In this document: positions 5,543-24,856 of the stretch, in pieces
How the letters are laid out: each line of letters starts with the position of its first letter
Position numbering within the stretch: the first letter of the stretch is position 1
IMG/VR virus record: IMGVR_UViG_3300043446_003625
Location: 1-24,856 of that record
Direction: 5' to 3' (one strand)
DNA from: a virus
Length of the DNA stretch: 24,856 bases
Position numbers and translations under genes: made by a program
The notes under the pieces: model-generated
Told to the model about the DNA's origin: nothing
Seen by the model: only the letters and a program-made list of their open reading frames with translations
Databases searched by the model: none

Positions 5543-6643
5543 ATGAGTCAAGCCCAATACAATCTCGCAACCAAAACCGACTATCTACATCGCAAGATGT
5601 TTCTTGATCCTGCAGGTCCTGTGACAATTCAACGCTTTGAAGAAGTCAAGTACAACAAACTGGTGAAGTTTGAACAAGAAGCACGTGGCTTCTTTTGGGT
5701 GCCAGAAGAAGTGTCACTCACAAAAGATGCCAATGACTTCAAAGAAGCCTCAGACACTGTCAAACACATCTTTACATCAAACCTACTACGTCAAACAGCA
5801 CTAGACAGTTTGCAAGGACGTGGACCAGCACAGGTGTTTACTCCTGTGGTGGGCATACCTGAACTGGAAGCCCTGATGTACAACTGGAGTTTCTTTGAAA
5901 CCAACATCCACAGTCGTAGTTACAGCCACATCATTCGCAACATCTACAATGTGCCCAAGGATGTGTTCAACACCATTCACGACACCAAAGAGATTGTGGA
6001 CATGGCCAGTTCAGTGGGTCGATACTATGATCACTTGCACATGGTCAACTGTGAAAAAGAACTGGAAGTTCCTGTGAAAGAAGCAGCACACATTCGTGCT
6101 ATCTGGTTGGCACTCAACGCCAGTTACGCCTTGGAAGCATTCCGCTTCATGGTCAGTTTTGCCACCAGCCTGGCCATGGTAGAGAATCGTATCTTTATTG
6201 GCAACGGCAACATTATCAGTTTAATCCTGCAAGACGAAATCCTGCACCGAGATTGGACTGCTTGGATGATCAATCAAGTTGTGAAAGAAGATCCACGCTT
6301 TGCTTCTGCCCGGGTGGAATGTGAAGCCGAAGTGTATCAGATGTATCTGGAGGTTATCCGTGAAGAAAAAGCCTGGGCCGACTACTTGTTCCAGAAAGGT
6401 CCGGTGATTGGACTCAACGCACAGATTTTGAAAGACTTTGTGGACTACACCGCTGCCAGTGCCTTGAAAGAAATTGGCATCAAATATCTGGAACCCGCAC
6501 CACGTAGCACACCCATTCCTTGGTTCATGAAGCACGTGGACACATCAAAGAAACAAACTGCACTGCAAGAGAATGAGTCAACTAACTATGTTATCGGCGT
6601 CATGAGTGACAGTCTTGACTACGACGAATTACCAAGTTTATAA
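5543..6643 (+). CDS. nrdB: Class Ia ribonucleotide reductase, small (beta) subunit
   Basis: A 366-residue di-iron, tyrosyl-radical subunit partnering NrdA. The metal ligands can be placed by comparison with E. coli NrdB: D88 (ALDSLQGR), E119 and H123 ([12 protein letters not shown]), E214 (LAMVE), E232 and H235 (DEILH). Y127 is the probable radical tyrosine. The acidic C-terminus with Y359 (DYDELPSL) fits the tail that docks on NrdA. One oddity is that E119 and H123 are four residues apart, where E. coli has three, because of one extra residue (N121). The start follows GGAGTAACA directly after the methyltransferase stop. The subunit appears functional. Confidence 0.96.
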
Positions 6644-6644
6644 T

Positions 6645-7853
6645 ATGAAAAAACGCAATTACACACCAGAAACAGTGCGCCGTCTGCAAGGATCGGTGCA
6701 GATTGAACACACGTTGGCACGTCGTGGTGCTGAAAAACTACGCAAACTTCTTGCCACCGAATCCTATATCAACACCTTGGGCGCCTACAATGGTCAGCAG
6801 GCTGTGCAGCATGCCAAGGCCGGATTAAAGGCAATTTACTTGAGTGGTTGGCAAGTGGCTGCGGCCAACAACACAGCCTTGCAAACCTATCCAGACCAAA
6901 GTCTGTATCCTGTTGACTCAGTGCCACGTGTGGTTCGTGGTATCAACAATGCCTTCCGCCGTGCTGATCAGATTGAACACAGCGAAGGCCAAGTGACCAC
7001 GGACTATTTCCTGCCAATCGTTGCTGATGCCGAAGCTGGCTTTGGTGGTGCATTAAACGCTTATGAACTCATGATGGCCATGATCGAAGCCGGTGCTGCA
7101 GGCGTACACTTTGAAGATCAACTCAGCTCAGAAAAGAAATGCGGACACCTGGGTGGCAAGGTCTTGATTCCCACCAACCAGGCCATTCGTAATCTCAATG
7201 CTGCCAGACTGGCTGCAGATGTAGCCGGAGTTGACACAGTGATCATGGCACGTACAGACGCTGAGGCTGCTACCTTGATTACCTCAGATCATGATCCACT
7301 GGACCGTGACTTTGTGATCAACGAACGCACCGAAGAAGGTTTCTACAAGTTTCGTAATGGTCTTGATGCTTGCATTGCTCGTGGACTGGCCTATGCGCCC
7401 TATGCTGACTTACTGTGGTTTGAAACATCCACCCCTGACCTACAACAGGCCAAACGATTTGCCGATGCTATCCATGCTCAGTACCCAGATCAGATGTTGG
7501 CCTATAACTGCTCACCCAGTTTCAACTGGCGCAAGTTTTTGAGTCTAGAAGAATGTGAAACATTCCAACGTGAACTGGGCGCATTGGGGTATAGATTTCA
7601 GTTTATCACATTGGCAGGATTCCACAGCACTAACCTTGCCACATTTGAACTGGCCGAAGCATACCGCCAACGTGGCATGGCAGGATACTCAGAAATGCAA
7701 CAGCGTGAATTTGCTGCACAACAACGTGGATTTACCACTGTGCGACATCAACGTGAAGTTGGTGTGGGATACTTTGATTTGATCGCGGAAGCAGTGGGTG
7801 CCACATCAACAGTGGCCAACAAAACGTCCACTGAAGCCGATCAATTCCATTAA
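6645..7853 (+). CDS. aceA: Isocitrate lyase
   Basis: A 402-residue isocitrate lyase that cleaves isocitrate to glyoxylate and succinate, the first step of the glyoxylate shunt. The signature KKCGH is intact (C166), within [18 protein letters not shown]. Other near-identical blocks to E. coli AceA are [60 protein letters not shown] and FQFITLAG. It is about 30 residues shorter than E. coli AceA, through a shorter N-terminus and two small internal deletions, all outside the catalytic motifs. The ATG at 6645 is chosen because it follows the nrdB stop by one base. An upstream in-frame ATG at 6606 would overlap nrdB by 38 bases. No malate synthase is in the window. Position inside the nrd cassette shows that it is a phage-borne metabolic gene and not flanking host DNA. 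Confidence 0.95.
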
Positions 7854-11521: not shown

Positions 11522-11797
11522 ATGACAGACATCAAAGAAATCAATTCCGCAATCATGTTTGGCAGTTTCACTGACAGTGAGCTATCCAGCATACTCAGCG
11601 CCGTGCAGTATGCCAAGGCTCAACTTCGTAAGGAAAAAATTCGCTCATTCACCAAAGGTGACACAGTGAAGTTTTACAGCTCCAAACGTGGTGTCACTGT
11701 GACAGGCACTGTGACCAAGGTTGCCATCAAGTATGTCACAGTCAAAGACGGTGCGGTATTGTGGCGTGTGCCTGCAAATATGTTGGAGACAGCATAA
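11522..11797 (+). CDS. Small protein with SH3/KOW-like beta domain
   Basis: 91 residues from the ATG at 11522, one base after the preceding stop. The first half is helical (SFTDSELSSILSAVQYAKAQLRK at about residues 15-37). The second half looks like a small beta-barrel, with KGDTVKFYS, GVTVTGTVTKVA, KYVTVKDG and LWRVPANML resembling KOW or SH3-like nucleic-acid or protein-binding modules. The function is unknown. Its TAA overlaps the next ATG. Confidence 0.75.
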   Translation: MTDIKEINSAIMFGSFTDSELSSILSAVQYAKAQLRKEKIRSFTKGDTVKFYSSKRGVTVTGTVTKVAIKYVTVKDGAVLWRVPANMLETA

Positions 11798-12015
11798 TGA
11801 ATGAATGGGTATTACTCATTGCGTTATTCAGTCCAGGCGGCAACTACATTGACAAAATACCTGTAGCTATGCCTACCAAAACTGCATGTGAGCAAGCAAT
11901 TAAGACACTGCCCAAAAAAGGCGAGCACCCAATGGGAGTGCGATACCAAGGTATATGTGTGACCATGGACCATTGGACTGGTACAGCACCAATGAAAAAT
12001 GTTCCACTTGACTAG
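11797..12015 (+). CDS. Small protein with hydrophobic N-terminus, two cysteines
   Basis: 72 residues, starting at an ATG that overlaps the previous stop (TAATG) with GGAGA upstream. A short hydrophobic start (NEWVLLIALF) may be a weak signal or membrane anchor. Two cysteines (TACEQA and GICVTM) could form a disulphide if it is exported. The order hydrophobic start, Val/Pro strand, C-x2-(A/V), RYQGIC resembles the 58-residue product at 21734-21910, so the two may be distant relatives. The function is unknown. Confidence 0.65.
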   Translation: MNEWVLLIALFSPGGNYIDKIPVAMPTKTACEQAIKTLPKKGEHPMGVRYQGICVTMDHWTGTAPMKNVPLD

Positions 12016-15383: not shown

Positions 15384-16895
15384 ATGTTTCTCAGTTATAT
15401 CACCTTGTTTGTTGCACTAAGTTTGAGTGTGGTGGCGGCCTGGTACAGTATCATTGGCCTCACTGCCATTTTTGCCAGTGCCGTTATACCCATTATCATC
15501 ATGGGAAGTATCTTGGAAGTGGCCAAGGTCACTGTGACCATATGGTTGCATGAATACTGGCACAGATGTAGACTGTTGATGAAATTTTATTTGGTACCGG
15601 CAGTGGCCATGCTCATGGTCATAACGTCAATGGGTATCTTTGGTTTCTTGAGCAAGGCACATTCTGATCAAAGTCTAGTGTCAGGAGATGTACTCAGTCG
15701 GATAGCAATATATGATGAAAAGATCAAAACCCAAAAGGAAAACATTGAAGCCAACCGTCGAGCACTTAAACAAATGGATGAGGGAGTGGACTCGGTACTG
15801 GGCCGCTCAACAGATGAAAAAGGTGCTGACAAGGCTGTGTCTCTTCGAAAAGCCCAGCAGAAAGAGCGTGGTCGCCTTCAAGCAGAAATACTACAGTCGC
15901 AGAAGTCCATTGCGGAACTTAACGAAGCCCGTGCGCCTATTGCCGCCGAGGTGCGTAAAGTTGAAGCAGAAGTTGGGCCAATTAAGTATATCGCGGCGTT
16001 CATCTACGGGGACAATCCGGATGCAAACTTGCTAGAACGTGCTGTGCGTTGGGTGATCATCATACTTGTTGTGGTGTTTGATCCACTTGCTATCATGATG
16101 GTGTTGGCAGCCACAGAGAGTTTGAAATGGGAACGTGAGAATCGATTGCGTCCTAGAACTGAACCAGCCTACGAAGCCGACGACGGTCCACTGACTGATC
16201 AGCAACAAGAACAAATACAAGCCACTGCCGAGGCAGACATGCCCACCGGACCGGTAGTTGAGACCAGTGGGTTGTTTGATGAAGAATCAAAAGATCCACA
16301 TCCTCCGGGCTGGATGTATGATCAACTCCGATCAGTGCCATTGGAAGAAAAAGAAGTTGAAGAAATTGCGGAAGAATTTGATCGTGCCAGACATGCTTAT
16401 CTAGATCGGGGTTTTGATCACTTCAAAGACTTAAAACCCATGGTGGCTCAACCTGCACAGGACATGGACGAGGATGTTGACGAACCAGAGAGTATCAAAA
16501 ATGCCATCAAACAGTGGAAGAGTCAAAATCCAGATCGTACCATCAAAGAAGAACGTGCCAAACTTGCTGCCGGACGTATAGGAGAATTGCCATGGATGCG
16601 TTTGTTAGCCGACAATGATTTGGGACGCGAGCCTACTTCGGGGTTTGGCATTGCGTTTCCTGCTGCCCCCATCAAAGGCGATTCATTCATGCGTGTTGAT
16701 CAAATGCCTAATGTGTTGTACAAATTCAACGGACACCACTGGATTATTGTGGACAAAAATTTAACTGATAACTACACTTACGACGATGCCTATATTGAGC
16801 ATTTGATTTCCAAGCTCACATCGGGAGAATATGACCCAGACATGTTGAGTGATGCAGAAGCTGATGCTATTGCTCGCCGTGTAAAACCAATCTAA
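15384..16895 (+). CDS. Membrane protein with long coiled coil
   Basis: A 503-residue protein. Hydrophobic segments lie at about residues 3-22, 24-46, 68-90 and 223-245. Between the third and fourth (about 103-200) is a charged Lys/Glu/Gln-rich coiled coil (YDEKIKTQKENIEANRR, AQQKERGRLQAEILQSQKS). The C-terminal 250 residues are soluble and acidic with Pro-rich linkers and end in a compact region (YKFNGHHWIIVDKNL). Similar coil-containing membrane proteins are common in T4-like phages of aquatic bacteria, with no known function. A role at the host inner membrane (lysis timing, superinfection or replication anchoring) is only a guess. It lies four bases after the preceding gene. Confidence 0.75.
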   Translation: MFLSYITLFVALSLSVVAAWYSIIGLTAIFASAVIPIIIMGSILEVAKVTVTIWLHEYWHRCRLLMKFYLVPAVAMLMVITSMGIFGFLSKAHSDQSLVSGDVLSRIAIYDEKIKTQKENIEANRRALKQMDEGVDSVLGRSTDEKGADKAVSLRKAQQKERGRLQAEILQSQKSIAELNEARAPIAAEVRKVEAEVGPIKYIAAFIYGDNPDANLLERAVRWVIIILVVVFDPLAIMMVLAATESLKWERENRLRPRTEPAYEADDGPLTDQQQEQIQATAEADMPTGPVVETSGLFDEESKDPHPPGWMYDQLRSVPLEEKEVEEIAEEFDRARHAYLDRGFDHFKDLKPMVAQPAQDMDEDVDEPESIKNAIKQWKSQNPDRTIKEERAKLAAGRIGELPWMRLLADNDLGREPTSGFGIAFPAAPIKGDSFMRVDQMPNVLYKFNGHHWIIVDKNLTDNYTYDDAYIEHLISKLTSGEYDPDMLSDAEADAIARRVKPI

Positions 16896-16897
16896 AT

Positions 16898-18106
16898 ATG
16901 AAATCATCTGAAACATTAGACAATTGTAGTTTCTGCGGCAAACACAAAGATTCAGTGGCCAAGCTCATTGTAGGAGCAGATGTTTCCATCTGCAATGAGT
17001 GTGTGGACCTATGCCAGACTTTGTTGAAAGATGAGATACCCATCAAAGCCAAAGAGATAACAGATGAACCATTGGATCCTAGAGCCATCAAGGAACACCT
17101 GGATCAGTATGTAATTGGTCAAGATCAAGCCAAAATGGTGCTAAGTGTAGCCATTTCCAATCACTACAAGCGAATTTCCAAATCTGAATCAGACGTGGAA
17201 ATTGAGAAAACCAACATTCTCATGCTGGGTCCTACAGGATCAGGTAAGACCTTGTTGGCTCGCACAGTGGCACGATATCTGGATGTTCCTTTTGTAATTG
17301 CTGATGCCACAAGTCTTACCGAAGCAGGCTATGTAGGCGATGATGTGGAAAGCCTAATTTCCAGACTGTTCTCGGCAGCAGGCAATGACATACAAAAAAC
17401 TCAGCGCGGCATAATTTTCATCGACGAGATTGACAAGATCAGTCGTAAAAGTGAAAGTGCCTCAATCACTCGAGATGTGTCAGGTGAAGGTGTGCAACAA
17501 GCATTACTTAAATTAGTTGAAGGCACAAGATGTAGGATAACCCCACAAGGGGGGCGCAAACACCCTTCTGGTGAAACCATTGAAATTGACACTAGCAATA
17601 TATTGTTCATTGCTGGTGGTGCATTTGTGGGGCTTGACAAGATCGTAAAAAGCCGAGTGCGTGGTACCAGCATTGGTTTTAGAGCCGAAGTGTCGGCTGA
17701 CCAACAAGGTGACTTACACCAAACCACACCTGAAGATTTGATCAAGTTTGGGTTGATACCTGAGTTTGTGGGACGTTTTCCTAGTTGGGTGGCTTTGGAT
17801 GAACTTGATAAACAAGACTTAGTGCGAATATTGCAAGATGTCCGGCATAGCTATGTCAGCCAGTATCAGTGGTTGTTCCAACGAGATCAAGTAGAACTTC
17901 AATTCAGTGAAGACAGTTTGGATCTCATTGCAGAACGTACTATTGCCAACAAAACTGGTGCACGAGGCTTGCATTCAGAACTTGAACGAGTTTTGCTGCC
18001 ACACATGTACAATTTAGCTCGCTATCGCAAACACGGAATCCACACTGTTTCTATTGACTCCCAACAGGTAAATATTCCCAAGGAGCTCAAAGAAATAAAT
18101 GAATAA
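16898..18106 (+). CDS. clpX: ClpX ATPase, unfoldase subunit of ClpXP
   Basis: A 402-residue full-length AAA+ unfoldase. The N-terminal zinc domain has C10, C13, C32 and C35 (CSFCGKHK ... CNECVDLC). Walker A is GPTGSGKT (111-118), the pore loop GYVGD (144-148), Walker B FIDEID (174-179), the RKH-type loop RKHPSGE (about 220-226) and sensor 2 GARGL. The IGF loop that docks on ClpP is kept (I259-G260-F261). No ClpP gene is in the window, so it may redirect the host ClpP to phage-chosen substrates. It starts two bases after the membrane gene and overlaps rpsU by eight bases. Confidence 0.96.
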   Translation: MKSSETLDNCSFCGKHKDSVAKLIVGADVSICNECVDLCQTLLKDEIPIKAKEITDEPLDPRAIKEHLDQYVIGQDQAKMVLSVAISNHYKRISKSESDVEIEKTNILMLGPTGSGKTLLARTVARYLDVPFVIADATSLTEAGYVGDDVESLISRLFSAAGNDIQKTQRGIIFIDEIDKISRKSESASITRDVSGEGVQQALLKLVEGTRCRITPQGGRKHPSGETIEIDTSNILFIAGGAFVGLDKIVKSRVRGTSIGFRAEVSADQQGDLHQTTPEDLIKFGLIPEFVGRFPSWVALDELDKQDLVRILQDVRHSYVSQYQWLFQRDQVELQFSEDSLDLIAERTIANKTGARGLHSELERVLLPHMYNLARYRKHGIHTVSIDSQQVNIPKELKEINE

Positions 18107-18436: not shown

Positions 18437-18895
18437 ATGACAAAAACTCTAACCCTTCGCGCTTTTGATCTTCCCGCAATTCACAAATTTGGTATCGGTT
18501 TCGATAACTTGTTTGATGATCTCATGCGTGTGAATGCCCAACAAAGCAACACCAATTATCCACCTTATGACATTGTGCAAATCAACGATGATGAGTACAT
18601 GATTTCTGTGGCTGTGGCAGGCTTTGGGCCCGACAACCTTAATGTTACCAAGGACAAAAAAACCTTGATCATTGAAGGCAAGCACAGCCGTGACACAGTG
18701 GACAACGAAGATGCCACTACCAAGTACTTGCACAAAGGCATCAGTGAGCGCAGTTTCCGCAGAGAGTTTACTCTTGCAGACTATGTGGAAATCAGCAATG
18801 CACATCTTGAACTGGGCATACTCAGCGTACATTTAAAGCGCGAAGTTCCTGAACAAGACAAACCAAAGACCATTGCGATTACTTACAAAGAGTAA
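18437..18895 (+). CDS. Small heat-shock protein, Hsp20/IbpA family
   Basis: A 152-residue alpha-crystallin-type chaperone that holds unfolding proteins. The N-terminus (GIGFDNLFDDLMR) and the start of the alpha-crystallin domain (YPPYDIVQINDDEYMISVAVAGF) resemble IbpA. The domain continues with KTLIIEGKH, GISERSFRREFTLADYVEI and a closing LGILSVHLKREVPE. The C-terminus has PKTIAI, an I-x-I-like anchor. AAAGGAGA precedes the ATG. Hsp20 genes are common in T4-like phages of aquatic bacteria, where they are thought to help capsid or host proteins fold. Confidence 0.95.
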   Translation: MTKTLTLRAFDLPAIHKFGIGFDNLFDDLMRVNAQQSNTNYPPYDIVQINDDEYMISVAVAGFGPDNLNVTKDKKTLIIEGKHSRDTVDNEDATTKYLHKGISERSFRREFTLADYVEISNAHLELGILSVHLKREVPEQDKPKTIAITYKE

Positions 18896-18965: not shown

Positions 18966-19277
18966 ATGGCACAGAGCGACGTCCGTACAAGGATCAAACC
19001 ATCAGAGGCTGTAAAAGAGCCCCCTATGTTCAAAGTTATCTATTTGAATGATAACCAAACAACAATGGATTTTGTGGTGGACAGCCTTGTTGAATATTTT
19101 GATTACACTCCAGAGTCCGCTGAACAGATCACCATAGACATTCATCAAGCAGGACAAGCCACAGTGGCAGTGCTGCCCTATGAAGTTGCTGAACAAAAAG
19201 GCATTGAAGTTACACTGAGTGCCCGTGCTCAACAGTACCCACTGCAAATCAAACTGGAACCCGAAACAGTAAATTAA
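18966..19277 (+). CDS. clpS: ClpS, N-degron adaptor of ClpAP
   Basis: A 103-residue protein matching ClpS: a disordered N-terminal tail (about 1-19), then PPMFKVIYLNDNQTTMDFVVDSL, IDIHQAGQATVAVLPYEVAEQKG and YPLQIKLE. The residues that hold the destabilising N-terminal residue in E. coli ClpS are N34, D35, D36, M40 and H66; here they are N28, D29, N30, M34 and H60, so the second acidic residue has become Asn. Family members pass N-degron substrates to ClpA. No clpA is in the window, so host ClpA would be the partner. The stop overlaps the stop of the convergent phosphoesterase gene by four bases. Confidence 0.92.
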   Translation: MAQSDVRTRIKPSEAVKEPPMFKVIYLNDNQTTMDFVVDSLVEYFDYTPESAEQITIDIHQAGQATVAVLPYEVAEQKGIEVTLSARAQQYPLQIKLEPETVN

Positions 19278-20062
19278 TCGTCCACAATAATACGCAGTGG
19301 ATGATAAACGTACTGGCGCCAGTCAGTGTCTCCGCGACCCCGGCAGTTATTGACAAATCGTACACCATTACGTATTTGATCTACTGATCCATGGTAGTGA
19401 CCAAAACACCAAGTGTGCAATTTTTTTTCTGTATCTGCGCTCAACGCCCGCATCATGAATCCGTTGCCCATGGTGTTGAACCGCAGTGTCTCAGCAAGGC
19501 CAATGTCGTGTGCAATCAAACATGAATTAGGGACAGTATGTGTTACACACACGATCTTTTGAACATCGTTGTGTGTCTGCAATTTTTTTATACTTGTGGT
19601 CATGTATGTGGCATCTGTTGTGGCTAGTCGTCCTACAGTTTTAGCAATTTGTGCATTGACTTTGCATTGATTTTGAAACCATAATGAAGTTTGTTCAGCA
19701 TCAATTGATGGATCTAAATCATAAGTCCACCAACCATTGGTTCCGACGATTGCGACGCCATCTACAACCACTACATTGTCTTGCAAAAATACAACATTGG
19801 GGATGTTTCTTATGCGACGAACTAGATCAGCGTAACTGGCATGAAGATCATCATAATGATATCGATGCTCGTCATTGCCGTCCACATAAAATACAGCTTG
19901 ATAACATGCGGCAAGATGACGCAATGTGTCCATTACTACTTCGCGATCACGTGCAAGGTCACCAGCTACCACACAATAAGCACTGTTGGCCATGCCAGTC
20001 CAATCAAAATCAGGCCAGGTTTCTGCGTGAAGGTCAGAAATTAAATCAAATGCAAAACTCAT
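19274..20062 (-). CDS. Calcineurin-like metallophosphoesterase
   Basis: 262 residues with the full metal-binding set of the family: D10-x-H12 (SDLHAE), GD at 34-35 (VAGDLARD), GNDEH at 62-66, a later HT (CVTHTVPN) and GHYHG near the C-terminus. There is no signal peptide, so it is cytoplasmic. It is a different subfamily from the PlcP-like enzyme at 21816-22661. Similar proteins occur in T4-like phages with no proven substrate (cyclic nucleotide, nucleic acid or phosphoprotein are all possible). It is divergent from the gene at 20087, with 24 bases between. It lacks a clear Shine-Dalgarno. Confidence 0.85.
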   Translation of the reverse strand: MSFAFDLISDLHAETWPDFDWTGMANSAYCVVAGDLARDREVVMDTLRHLAACYQAVFYVDGNDEHRYHYDDLHASYADLVRRIRNIPNVVFLQDNVVVVDGVAIVGTNGWWTYDLDPSIDAEQTSLWFQNQCKVNAQIAKTVGRLATTDATYMTTSIKKLQTHNDVQKIVCVTHTVPNSCLIAHDIGLAETLRFNTMGNGFMMRALSADTEKKLHTWCFGHYHGSVDQIRNGVRFVNNCRGRGDTDWRQYVYHPLRIIVDD

Positions 20063-20756: not shown

Positions 20757-21755
20757 TTAAACCACAGGTACCAAATTGTCTCTAAATATCTCCCAGGCAC
20801 GTTGCCATGACCAACGTTGACTGCCTTGCCATACTAGATGTCGTGGCAAGAATAAACAATCAGTTACGGCCTGCTTCAAATCTTGATTCATGCAGCCAGT
20901 GATGCCTTCGTCTATGACATCCAAAGGCCCTTGACAGGGATAGGCTGCCACTGGAGTGCCGCAGGCCATGGCTTCAATCATTACAATGCCAAAAGTTTCC
21001 CATTGACTGGGGAAAACAAATACATCAGCCAGGCTGTAATATTCGGCCAGTGCAGAGCCAGTTTTGAAGCCCACAAATTCCACTGTGGGATAGCGATTTT
21101 CTAATTCAACCCTGTAAGGCCCATCACCTACCATGATTTTTCTTGCACCAGCAAAGGGCAAGGCACAAAATGCATCAAGATTTTTTTCTTTGCTTACTCT
21201 GCTGACACACACCAATGTGGGTCTGAGAGCAGGCAATCTATCTCGTGGATAAAATATGTCACGATCTACGCCACGAGTCCATGGCACAATGTCGCCATCA
21301 AAGCCGTGTGTTCTCAACTCCTGTACCATGGTGTCTGTTGTGGTTAATACCTTGCCTGAATGTTTGTGAAACCAACGCACTAGAGGCCAAGTAATGCTTT
21401 CAGGTATACCAAACAGGGTTCTAAGTCCTTCTGGAAACTTAGTATGATAAGCAGTGTTGTACCTATAATGACGTTTGTCAAGATATTGTCTAGTACGCAA
21501 ACCAATAGGACCTTCGGTGGCGATGTGGATATGATCCGGACGGATCTCCTCAAGTATCTTGCCCAAGTTCCGCGGAAAGGCAATCTTGACTTGGTTGTAG
21601 CCAGGGCAATCAAAGTAGCGGAACCGCCGGGGATCAAGATATACAACACGATAGTTGTCGCGAATCGCACACGCCTCAATATTTTTATAGGTTGTAACCA
21701 CGCCATTGATTTGATCAGGTAAGTTGTCTGTGACTATGAGGATAGTTTTTGGCAT
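20757..21755 (-). CDS. agt: GT4 glycosyltransferase, probable Agt-type glycolipid synthase
   Basis: A 332-residue GT-B retaining glycosyltransferase. The N-terminal acceptor domain begins TILIVTDNLPDQINGVVTTY and has DHIHIATEGPIG. The donor domain has LVCVSRVSKEKNLDAF and the EX7E signature in WETFGIVMIEAMACGTPV. Close family types are the diacylglycerol and mannosyl/glucosyl transferases that sit next to plcP in bacteria. There Agt adds a sugar to the diacylglycerol released by PlcP. GGAGGG lies before the ATG, inside the end of the small ORF at 21734-21910. Family membership is clear. The acceptor is inferred from the plcP neighbour; an O-antigen or lipopolysaccharide role is the alternative. 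Confidence 0.8.
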   Translation of the reverse strand: MPKTILIVTDNLPDQINGVVTTYKNIEACAIRDNYRVVYLDPRRFRYFDCPGYNQVKIAFPRNLGKILEEIRPDHIHIATEGPIGLRTRQYLDKRHYRYNTAYHTKFPEGLRTLFGIPESITWPLVRWFHKHSGKVLTTTDTMVQELRTHGFDGDIVPWTRGVDRDIFYPRDRLPALRPTLVCVSRVSKEKNLDAFCALPFAGARKIMVGDGPYRVELENRYPTVEFVGFKTGSALAEYYSLADVFVFPSQWETFGIVMIEAMACGTPVAAYPCQGPLDVIDEGITGCMNQDLKQAVTDCLFLPRHLVWQGSQRWSWQRAWEIFRDNLVPVV

Positions 21756-21910: not shown

Positions 21911-22661
21911 TGTCAGTCTCCTGAAGCCATGTAACAATTTCCCAGCGACCGTCATGATGTTCAACCAAGGCAGTGCAGGATTCAACCCAGTCACCGTCAT
22001 TCATGTACACTATGCCATCTATGATTTTGATTTCGGCATGATGTATATGTCCACAAATCACACCATCAAAACCACGTTTTCTACAGTAGTCCACAAGATT
22101 ACGTTCAAAGTGAAAAATGAAGTCTACTGCTTTTTTAACCCGATGCTTAAGGAACAGGCTAAGGCTAAAGTACCCAAAACCCATACGATGACGAATCCAA
22201 TTAATCCTGGTATTGAGTCCAAGTATGATATCATATGCTTTGTCTCCTAACAATGCTAACCAAGGTGCCAGTCTTGTGATACCGTCGAATAAGTCGCCAT
22301 GCACCACCAGGTAATGCCGACCATCAGCACCTATGTGTTCCAATTGATTTACAACATCGATCATACCAAAACCAATGTTGTATTGCATGAACGGTCTTAG
22401 AAACTCGTCGTGATTACCAGCCACATAAACAATCCTAGTGTCGCGCTTACTATGACCCAAAATACGCCGTATGACATTGGTGTGGCTTTGTTTCCATCGC
22501 CATTTGTTTTGTTTGATTTTCCAAGCATCAATGATGTCTCCCACAAGATAAAGAGTATGACAACTGTTGTTTTTGAGAAAGTTGTTGAGTTTGTTGGCCT
22601 GGCTGTCTTTGGTGCCAAGGTGCACATCGCTGATAAAAATACTGCGGTATGTTTTTTCCAT
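21816..22661 (-). CDS. plcP: PlcP-like phospholipase C (metallophosphoesterase)
   Basis: 281 residues. The motifs in order are FISDVHLGT (D12, H14), LVGDIIDAWK (D42), AGNHDEFLR (82-90), VVHGDLFD (121-123), CGHIHHAEI (204-208) and NDGDWVESCTALVEHHDG. This pattern, especially GDWVESCTA after GHIHH, is that of the proteobacterial family usually auto-named UDP-2,3-diacylglucosamine hydrolase-like, which includes PlcP. PlcP removes phosphocholine- or phosphoethanolamine-type head groups from phospholipids during phosphate starvation. The linked glycosyltransferase and the upstream Pho-type sites favour PlcP over LpxH. The last 30 residues are a non-conserved tail overlapping a small ORF. No Shine-Dalgarno is seen, and the best -10 (TAAATA, 22666-22671) would make the transcript almost leaderless. 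Confidence 0.85.
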   Translation of the reverse strand: MEKTYRSIFISDVHLGTKDSQANKLNNFLKNNSCHTLYLVGDIIDAWKIKQNKWRWKQSHTNVIRRILGHSKRDTRIVYVAGNHDEFLRPFMQYNIGFGMIDVVNQLEHIGADGRHYLVVHGDLFDGITRLAPWLALLGDKAYDIILGLNTRINWIRHRMGFGYFSLSLFLKHRVKKAVDFIFHFERNLVDYCRKRGFDGVICGHIHHAEIKIIDGIVYMNDGDWVESCTALVEHHDGRWEIVTWLQETDNVVDDIDSSTHKQSTGSPRPSRIDFPRSKHL

Positions 22662-22682
22662 AATGTATTTAGATCAAAATCA

Positions 22683-22711
22683 GTTACAATAATGTTACAC
22701 TGTGGTCACAG
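22683..22711 (-). promoter_or_regulatory. Tandem Pho-box-like operator upstream of plcP
   Basis: Read on the minus strand there are three 7-base units separated by 4-base spacers: CTGTGAC, CACA, GTGTAAC, ATTA, TTGTAAC. The exact 11-bp period and TGT-A core are those of PhoB binding sites (consensus half CTGTCAT; phoE-type halves such as CTGTAAT). The last unit lies 11 bases before the candidate -10, where a Pho box replaces the -35. It implies control by the host PhoR-PhoB system. The site also contains a short palindrome (CTGTGACCACAG), so another regulator is possible. Confidence 0.6.
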
Positions 22712-22735
22712 AATTTTTTGTAGGTAAATATACCC

Positions 22736-23377
22736 GTGAAACCCACCATAGCCCTTTTTATTCATGATCCCCGGTGCTCGGTACAGAGTGGCAATGGCAT
22801 TATGCGAGCCTTGGGCGCAGATTTCCAATTCAAGATATTCAGTCGTAACGAAGTTGAAGATGTGTTCTTTGACAATGTTGACATGGTGGCAGTGCCCGGA
22901 GGTTTTGGTGATGCTGACAACTATGATCGACTGTTCAAACTCAATGCTCGTGCTGTGAAAAAATTTGTGCGATCCGGCGGCAGATATCTAGGCATCTGCA
23001 TGGGTGCATACTGGGCAGGGTCACATTATCTCAACATCTTGGATTCAGTGGATGCTGTGCAATACATGCGACGCCCACGGTCGGACACACGAAGACCACA
23101 TGCCAAGTATATGCCAGTGACCTGGCAGGGAGAGTCTGACCACATGTACTGGTATGATGGTTGTGCTCTTGTGGGTGATCGATCTCGATTTACCACAGTG
23201 GCCACATACTCCAACGGAGATGCCATGGCCATAATGCAGGGTAGGATTGGCCTAATAGGTTGTCACCCGGAAGCCGAGCAGTTTTGGTATGACAGTTATT
23301 CATGGATGCGTGGTCACTGGGCAGGTGGACATCATCATAGGCTGCGTGAATTTGCTGACCAACTCATGCGGTCATAA
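22736..23377 (+). CDS. Class I glutamine-amidotransferase-like protein (BPL_N type)
   Basis: 213 residues from a GTG at 22736; no better start is available and the ribosome binding site is weak (GTAGGT). The fold is that of DJ-1/class I amidotransferase domains. It has an AVPGGFGDADNY loop, a nucleophile elbow with C88 in YLGICMGAYWAG, and H177-P-E179 in GCHPEAE completing a Cys-His-Glu triad. This resembles the N-terminal domain of eukaryotic biotin-protein ligase and stand-alone homologues in aquatic phages, whose reaction is unknown. It is divergent from plcP and shares its 74-base upstream region, so Pho control could extend to it. Confidence 0.75.
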   Translation: MKPTIALFIHDPRCSVQSGNGIMRALGADFQFKIFSRNEVEDVFFDNVDMVAVPGGFGDADNYDRLFKLNARAVKKFVRSGGRYLGICMGAYWAGSHYLNILDSVDAVQYMRRPRSDTRRPHAKYMPVTWQGESDHMYWYDGCALVGDRSRFTTVATYSNGDAMAIMQGRIGLIGCHPEAEQFWYDSYSWMRGHWAGGHHHRLREFADQLMRS

Positions 23378-23399
23378 AAAAAGGCCCTGGTGGGCCTTT
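23376..23399 (-). terminator. Intrinsic terminator of the porin transcript
   Basis: AAAGGCCC and GGGCCTTT (23392-23399) form an 8-bp stem around a TGGT loop. On the minus strand it is followed by a T-run (the A-run at 23376-23382 on the plus strand), which makes it a strong terminator for porin. For the plus-strand gene ending at 23377 only TTT follows, so it is weaker there. Confidence 0.85.
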
Positions 23400-23451
23400 A
23401 GTACTGGTTACGAGTTCCAGCGCCGCTCAATCATTGCGGTCGGTTTATGCT

Positions 23452-24573
23452 TTAAAAGCGGTGTTGAATGCCAATAGCAAAGGCTTTTTGGCTGTACTTG
23501 CTGTCTGCATAGTTTGAACCACCACCATCTGGAACCCAACGGTCATACACTGTGAATGGGCTCACTGCACTGGCTCCACGGTCCGCAACCACATAGTCCA
23601 CAAACATTTCTGTGCGCTTGCTGAATGCATAGGTAGCACCCACAGCAGTCATCTTGACATCGTCTTTGCCAGCAGTGATTTTGTCCTGTACATTGTAGTA
23701 ACCAGCATTCAAGCCCACTGCATCGCTGACCTTGTACTTGGCACCAACAAACCAGGTGTTGGCATCGGTCTTGCCATCGGCCTTGCTAGAACTTGAGTAG
23801 TATGTGGTCTGTGCGGTGGGATTGCGTGTTTCAGCATAGCCTGTGTTCACAGTCAGTGCGGGCGTCACTGCAAATTTCACAGCCAGCAAGTCAATTTCTT
23901 GGCTGATCACTGTGTTGGTCAAACGTGCTTTTTCCTTGGTGTAGGCCACGTCAAAGGGTCCTGTGGTGTAGCGAACGCCCAGGTTGTAACTGCTTTTGTA
24001 TGACACGTCACCGGGTTGGTTGCCTGAACTGTATGAGCCATCAAACTTTAAGCCGCCAAAGTCGGGCGATGTGTAACGCAACATGTTGTCAAAGCGGCTG
24101 ATGCCTGATCCACCGTAGAAACCGGCATAACGTGCAATGGGCTTGAGGCCACCAAAATTCCAGTTGCCACGGCTATCAAACTCATCGGCCACTTGATACA
24201 AGAAGTTCTTGCCACGTCCCAATTGCACTTGACCAAAGTCACCGGCCAGGGCCATGTTGGCTTCACGATCAAACACTGTGGATCCTGTGGTGCCTGTGCC
24301 GCCTGAGTCTTTGCCCATGGCGCCTGTGCGTAGGCTGTAGTTGGCTTCTAGTTGGAACTTGGCAGTCAGGCCGCCACCTAGGTCTTCTGCACCCCGGACA
24401 CCAAAACGGTTGCTGTTATGTAACTGTTCTGCAAATCCTTTGAATTCACTGTTGTTGGAAGTGAATCCTGTGCCACTCACAGCACCTGCACCGGCCACAC
24501 CATAGACCTGAATGTTCTGGGCTTGTGCCAAGCCTGCGACGGTCATTGCCACCGCCAATACTAATTTTTTCAT
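23452..24573 (-). CDS. Outer-membrane porin, betaproteobacterial trimeric type
   Basis: 373 residues with a signal peptide (MKKLVLAVAMTVAGLAQAQ) followed by NIQVYGVAGAG and NRFGVRGAEDLGGGLTAKFQLE, the start of a 16-stranded Burkholderiales-type porin. Next is FDREANMALAGDFGQVQLGR, and the protein ends IQHRF with the terminal phenylalanine needed for barrel insertion. Alternating strands run to the end with no break, so it appears functional. AGGAGA lies before the ATG. It starts 26 bases after pstS on the same strand, so the two are probably one transcript, ended by the hairpin at 23376-23399. A phosphate or anion preference is inferred only from pstS. Confidence 0.93.
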   Translation of the reverse strand: MKKLVLAVAMTVAGLAQAQNIQVYGVAGAGAVSGTGFTSNNSEFKGFAEQLHNSNRFGVRGAEDLGGGLTAKFQLEANYSLRTGAMGKDSGGTGTTGSTVFDREANMALAGDFGQVQLGRGKNFLYQVADEFDSRGNWNFGGLKPIARYAGFYGGSGISRFDNMLRYTSPDFGGLKFDGSYSSGNQPGDVSYKSSYNLGVRYTTGPFDVAYTKEKARLTNTVISQEIDLLAVKFAVTPALTVNTGYAETRNPTAQTTYYSSSSKADGKTDANTWFVGAKYKVSDAVGLNAGYYNVQDKITAGKDDVKMTAVGATYAFSKRTEMFVDYVVADRGASAVSPFTVYDRWVPDGGGSNYADSKYSQKAFAIGIQHRF

Positions 24574-24599: not shown

Positions 24600-24856
24600 T
24601 TATAACAATCCCAAACGCTGCCAATCAGCACGGACAGCGTTCTTGACCTTTTCAGGCAATGGAACATAATCCAGGGACAATGCTTCTCGGTCTCCTTTGT
24701 TAAAAGCCCAGTCAAAAAACTTCACAGTTTCTTTGGTGGCAGGAGACACAGATTCATAGACAATTATAAACGTTGCGGCTGTGATAGGCCAACCATTTTG
24801 GTTATTCAAGTTCACTGCCATACCTGGAACTGACCAGTTGGCACCGTTGGCCGCTT
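24600..24856 (-). CDS. pstS: PstS phosphate-binding protein, C-terminal fragment
   Basis: The last 85 residues or so of an open frame that runs off the right edge, so the 5' end is missing because of the window limit. The segment ANGANWSVPGMAVNLNNQNG followed by WPITAATFIIVYE matches the C-terminal region of PstS (compare NQQGWPLTAATFI in E. coli). It continues with TKETVKFFDWAFNKGD, LDYVPLPEKV and a final RADWQRLGLL. PstS captures phosphate in the periplasm for the Pst ABC transporter. No pstCAB is in the window, so host transporter subunits would be used. Phage pstS is known from cyanophages. Its promoter lies outside the window. Confidence 0.92.
   Translation of the reverse strand, partial: AANGANWSVPGMAVNLNNQNGWPITAATFIIVYESVSPATKETVKFFDWAFNKGDREALSLDYVPLPEKVKNAVRADWQRLGLL

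Follow-up and report, generated by a model that had tools for sequence, protein, structure and literature searches.

In a viral genome fragment we identified a site directly upstream of a plcP-like gene and its glycosyltransferase partner that is very probably a Pho-box promoter controlled by the phosphate regulator PhoB, as judged from its sequence; PhoB binding and a response to phosphate are inferred. The fragment is a record of 24,856 bases, analyzed over its whole length and referred to here as the window. Our best reading is of a composite promoter, in which a PhoB box is joined to the -10 element of a phage late promoter, with both PhoB binding and late sigma factor use inferred. Because a host-type switch and a virus-type late promoter precede plcP and pstS in many relatives, phosphate shortage probably activates these genes. 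The virus probably infects freshwater bacteria, and phosphate shortage in the host would turn on its plcP and, in its relatives, pstS as well. The support is comparative, not experimental, and there are no binding or transcription data.

Pho boxes consist of direct repeats of ~7 bp with an 11-bp period, of the type CTGTNAY, and the site conforms to this description (Table 1). On the minus strand, positions 22711..22683 hold the units CTGTGAC, GTGTAAC, and TTGTAAC, separated by CACA and ATTA. Units, coordinates, strand, period, and spacers are exactly those given in an earlier note on this DNA. Downstream of TTGTAAC follow 11 nt, the hexamer TAAATA, 4 nt (CATT), and the plcP ATG at 22661. The pattern TGTAAYN5TGTAAY has a single exact match in the window. 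The outer two units pair weakly (6.9 bits with the matrix described below) and relatives do not retain CTGTGAC; what is conserved is therefore a box of two units. Two units are enough for a PhoB dimer.

Table 1. Features of the plcP promoter region and the surrounding gene cluster (window coordinates unless a relative is named).
Feature	Position	Strand	Remarks
Third unit CTGTGAC	22705..22711	-	In phase with the other two units; not conserved in relatives
Putative PhoB half-site GTGTAAC	22694..22700	-	11 bp upstream of TTGTAAC; the two together make up the conserved Pho box
Putative PhoB half-site TTGTAAC, promoter-proximal	22683..22689	-	TGT.A invariant in aligned relatives
TAAATA, T4-late-type -10 element	22666..22671	-	C at 22672 gives CTAAATA
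plcP-like calcineurin-type phosphoesterase, 281 aa	21816..22661	-	Pfam Metallophos 5e-11
Family 4 glycosyltransferase, downstream of plcP	20757..21755	-	Pfam Glyco_trans_1_4 4e-23
Gram-negative porin (Porin_4)	23452..24573	-	Pfam 6e-42
pstS, C-terminal part	24600..24854	-	Cut by the right edge, promoter outside the record; tblastn to relatives
Glutamine-amidotransferase-like gene, divergent	22736..23377	+	Preceded by its own TAAATA (22725-22730), without a Pho box in that orientation
Structured RNA candidate, two hairpins, ~65 nt	23396..23462	-	Between the porin gene and its terminator; 71 bits with model R1
RNA candidate copies in relatives	L003 9190-9256; L014 3261-3326; L055 9936-10001; others

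Since circularity was to be avoided, we scored the site with a matrix obtained de novo and not with a fixed consensus. We took the 200 nt in front of 30 pstS genes from the likely host order, and expectation maximization without any phage seed yielded TTGTAATATTTCTGTAACATT. With this matrix, the lower two units (22683-22700) score 17.7 bits and take the top place in the window (the runner-up reaches 11.6 bits), within the range of the host pstS sites (12 to 26 bits). In Markov sequence a score this high has a chance of ~1e-6 per position, and AT-rich sequence raises the figure to 3e-6. The earlier note would have counted its PhoB reading as refuted by a matrix score no better than that of random intergenic sequence, and with a matrix from the likely host order the reading passed this test. 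We take that order to be Burkholderiales, an inference that rests on the type of porin and on a tmRNA of betaproteobacterial type in one relative (L014). The tmRNA gene lies at 11567-11977 (+) of that record, is of the permuted form (Rfam, 158 bits), and hints at the host type. The PstS of a close relative phage shares 63-66% identity with its best bacterial matches, and several of the genomes with these matches belong to the order reached from genome G195, which also has the best porin match.

We considered whether the box came with a host plcP gene and rejected this source, as the 320 nt upstream of 80 bacterial plcP relatives contain a similar pair in 3 cases only. Among bacterial plcP genes, the nearest (~60%) are mostly alphaproteobacterial. 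Given this affiliation and the scarcity of boxes at bacterial plcP genes, the promoter and the gene may have separate histories.

plcP has hundreds of viral relatives, and we fetched 80 viral plcP loci. Exact TGTAAY-N5-TGTAAY pairs were found upstream of both plcP and pstS, with identical geometry. For eight close relatives (G001-G006, G009, G010) we scanned entire records of up to 225 kb; each contains exactly two such pairs, one before plcP and one (where checked) before pstS, versus 0 to 1 matches for a reversed-pattern control. A site before pstS had been predicted and is present in relatives; in the window's own record pstS is cut off by the right edge. The expectation that related plcP phages conserve the units held for two of them and failed for the third, so that a conserved triple site is ruled out and the triple is peculiar to the window phage. 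Among non-redundant upstream regions, scores of at least 12 bits are reached by 40 of 84 plcP/pstS genes vs. 16 of 1032 other genes (Fisher 7e-37, an optimistic value because the loci are related and independence is overstated). All 36 exact pairs before the 84 plcP/pstS genes have a period of 11, with none at any other period from 6 to 21, and in 33 of them TAAATA lies exactly 11 nt past the last unit. Of the 41 plcP genes that possess a TAAATA promoter themselves, 39 have a TGTAAY unit. Another 23 of the 64 plcP relatives have no TAAATA promoter of their own; just one of these has a pair, and several sit downstream of pstS on the same strand. No such site was found at the plcP homologue of Synechococcus phage S-SRM01.

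We then ran the composite pattern TGTAAY-N5-TGTAAY-N11-TAAATA over the viral collection without regard to genes; the matches listed number 89, at 80 loci. The next gene is plcP or pstS in 66 of the 89 matches listed (35 plcP, 31 pstS). The rest are followed by a conserved alanine-rich protein family (6), other genes (10), or contig ends (7). A control scan with a period of 12 returned 57 stretches, none with plcP or pstS, and when the -10 was exchanged for one of sigma-70 type, placed at the offset seen in hosts, pstS followed in 3 of 80. Taken with the matrix score and the relatives, the scan extends the Pho-box reading beyond cyanophages, and to plcP.

Other genes also follow the composite element. 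An alanine- and valine-rich protein starting MRLEDLAARLVAVEAKLATLTGT represents a third gene type behind it (L029 5708-6371, L047 11626-12348, L011 11895-12625) and has no Pfam or PHROG match. In L222, L238, L248, and L254 the genes downstream of the composite element comprise, among others, a member of the Na/Pi cotransporter family, which is one of the 10 other genes counted above, and a recurrent membrane protein with the motif NDSVQTLGT. We do not accept the three NDSVQTLGT proteins as phosphate carriers, as there was likeness only and they matched nothing.

The earlier note also placed a candidate -10 downstream of the repeats. An element is indeed present, but it is the T4-late-like TAAATA and not of host type. 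PhoB-activated sigma-70 promoters are expected to have a TAnnnT hexamer 10 nt past the box; this is seen in 27 of 30 host pstS promoters and in none of 29 phage sites, 21 of which have TAAATA at offset 11 instead. Host promoters have A at -11 in 93% of cases, whereas 79% of the phage sites have T there, with the conserved TAAATA displaced by 1 nt. If the distance from box to transcription start equals that in the hosts, TAAATA would occupy -11 to -6, a register taken from the alignment, with the starts unmapped. For comparison, the T4 late core TATAAATA spans -13 to -6 and the late motif of phage Aeh1, CTAAATA, begins at -12 (PMC1524935).

TAAATA is the commonest hexamer upstream of the genes of these phages, with a peak 4-7 nt before the ATG and, in the close clade, a ~4-fold excess over the reversed-pattern control. 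Starts preceded by it lack a Shine-Dalgarno sequence, partly because the two elements would overlap. This arrangement (TAAATA 4-7 nt before a start without Shine-Dalgarno) accounts for 56 of 614 starts in relatives, and TAAATA also precedes starts in the window, at 15384 (+) and 19274-20062 (-) besides the two elements in Table 1. The gene at 15384 has a weak virion PHROG match. These cases point to leaderless transcripts from a T4-late-type promoter. The isolate Mosig, a pelagiphage, has a gene for the late sigma factor gp55 as well as pstS and plcP in divergent orientation; there, TAAATA precedes 6 of 14 virion genes vs. 1 of 21 others, and the plcP gene has ATAAATA 5 nt before its ATG. Between pstS and plcP, Mosig also has TTTAACA-AAAA-CTTAACA, suggestive of a SAR11-type box, although no SAR11 matrix was scored. 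The factor gp55 was found in four more distant plcP phages (G490, G491, G017, and G019). It was not detected in the records of the closest relatives, and the window record is itself a fragment. With gp55 undetected in the closest relatives, we consider the late-promoter half of the reading about as likely as not.

Could the site be an ordinary sigma-70 PhoB promoter, taken from the host and with a drifted -10, that is read early by the host polymerase with TAAATA as a poor -10? This alternative shares the PhoB half with the composite promoter and differs in the polymerase. The box and its distance to the -10 match those of host pstS promoters, and the hexamer TTAAAT retains four of the six consensus bases. 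PhoB is also known to work at promoters whose sigma-70 elements are poor. However, the loss of the -11 A and the 1-nt displacement described above are hard on such a promoter, and TAAATA stands alone, without a Pho box, before many genes. We therefore regard capture of a sigma-70 promoter as unlikely, although it is the most serious of the alternatives.

It is a good deal less probable that the repeats are read by a phage-encoded regulator, or by a host regulator other than PhoB. The TGTAAY half-sites are a subset of the host motif and our search for a phage regulator was not exhaustive, but a matrix built from bacterial pstS promoters alone fits the site, and the genes behind it are phosphate genes, namely pstS, plcP, and one Na/Pi cotransporter-like gene. 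The fixed distance to a phage -10 could suggest a general promoter element or a middle-promoter box with no link to phosphate. We give this very little credence and reject it as contradicted by the whole-record scans, in which close relatives have only two exact copies each, and by the rarity of high-scoring sites (at least 12 bits) before other genes. As for a chance repeat in AT-rich intergenic sequence, only the weak third unit, unique to the window phage, speaks for it. The probability of the matrix score and the conservation in relatives led us to reject this origin, which we consider negligible.

The plcP product is calcineurin-type, is distinct from LpxH (LpxH models matched only far below cut-off), and adjoins a lipid glycosyltransferase, as expected of PlcP, with phospholipase activity inferred. 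The glycosyltransferase is likely the partner in glycolipid synthesis, an activity also inferred. On the minus strand, the porin gene and the truncated pstS lie upstream of plcP, beyond the divergent gene, and the glycosyltransferase gene lies downstream. Full-length pstS genes of relatives pass the NCBIfam PstS cut-offs. No Shine-Dalgarno sequence precedes plcP, the transcript of which is apparently leaderless or nearly so; leaderless translation is inferred. Elsewhere, the window encodes an isocitrate lyase (6606-7853, +), which exceeds the curated NCBIfam cut-off with 691 bits and is flanked by genes for ribonucleotide reductase and glutaredoxin. It also has adjoining homologues of ClpX, Hsp20, and ClpS (16898-18106, 18437-18895, and 18966-19277, all +) that form a protein-quality-control block.

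In the proposed mechanism, host PhoB, phosphorylated by PhoR under phosphate shortage, would occupy the two conserved half-sites and assist RNA polymerase in opening a promoter that has the phage TAAATA late element, and not a sigma-70 hexamer, as its -10. The transcript would begin on the plcP start codon or a few bases from it. Cleavage of host phospholipids by PlcP would yield diacylglycerol and headgroups that carry phosphate; the glycosyltransferase would then glycosylate the diacylglycerol to a glycolipid, and the phosphate freed could go into phage DNA. In relatives, the same switch would drive pstS, together with the porin gene, and raise phosphate uptake. With the box at a constant distance of one helical turn ahead of a late -10 of T4 type, PhoB may act on phage late promoters as one input of an AND gate, so that the genes would fire only when the late program is running and the host is phosphate-starved; we see about as much reason to doubt this inference as to accept it. 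PhoB is known to act through contact with region 4 of sigma-70. According to published descriptions, T4 late promoters lack a -35 or upstream element (PMC2988020), and thus aid from PhoB to a gp55-containing polymerase is mechanistically unproven.

The cluster also contains a structured RNA candidate, which lies either at the 3' end of the transcript for pstS and porin or immediately upstream of plcP. It comprises a conserved AAAYCG, a first stem with covariation at five of its nine pairs, and a second, invariant hairpin, CTGG-AACTCGTAA-CCAG (CTGG-N9-CCAG). No Rfam family matches it. The model finds one copy each in 12 of 15 related phage records; among 300 bacterial genomes from the host order, one has a match. 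Of 62 copies obtained in a scan without regard to genes, 46 are no more than 4 kb away from a gene of the pstS/plcP cluster, often between pstS and plcP. A motif like GCTGGTCAGCGGCGTACAATGTG recurs just after the composite element in L220, L231, L251, and L281, and in L076 upstream of plcP; it is perhaps a second structured RNA.

That phages exploit the phosphate regulator of the host is already known from cyanophages. By inference from sequence, such use extends here to many uncultured phages of a non-cyanobacterial host type, includes lipid recycling besides phosphate uptake, and is coupled to a phage-type late -10. If the proposal is true, phosphate supply sets phage-driven lipid remodeling, and a site-specific host activator works on a phage late promoter, a feature absent from the T4 model. 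The 11-bp and 11-nt geometry makes both the PhoB and the late-promoter claims directly testable.

Cyanophage pstS and other cyanophage genes are under Pho-box control by the host PhoBR system, as in P-SSM2 and S-PM2d (PMC10976474 and references there), and Pho boxes have been searched for in cyanophages (PMC3037559). The precedent is experimental for some promoters, but predicted boxes, taken one by one, were not reliable predictors of PhoB binding (PMC10976474). The likeness lies in phage genes placed under the host phosphate regulator during infection. However, the cyanophage boxes are of the type CTTA-N7-CTTA or PyTTAAPyPyT/A and differ from the box described here, which precedes plcP as well as pstS, belongs to a non-cyanobacterial host type, and is fixed to a late-type -10. 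We found no paper on phage plcP in the openly licensed papers searched. In marine bacteria, plcP-glycosyltransferase clusters with predicted Pho boxes serve lipid remodeling under phosphate shortage (PMC4796936); the gene order, plcP followed by a glycosyltransferase gene, is the same, but those clusters are bacterial and this one is carried by a phage. With host-order PhoB-activated pstS promoters, the phage site shares two 7-bp units at 11 bp and an equal distance to the -10 region, and it differs in having TAAATA at offset 11 in place of TAnnnT at offset 10. With the late promoters of T4 and Aeh1 it shares the core and the register relative to the expected start, whereas the window phage adds what those of T4 lack, an activator site in fixed phase upstream.
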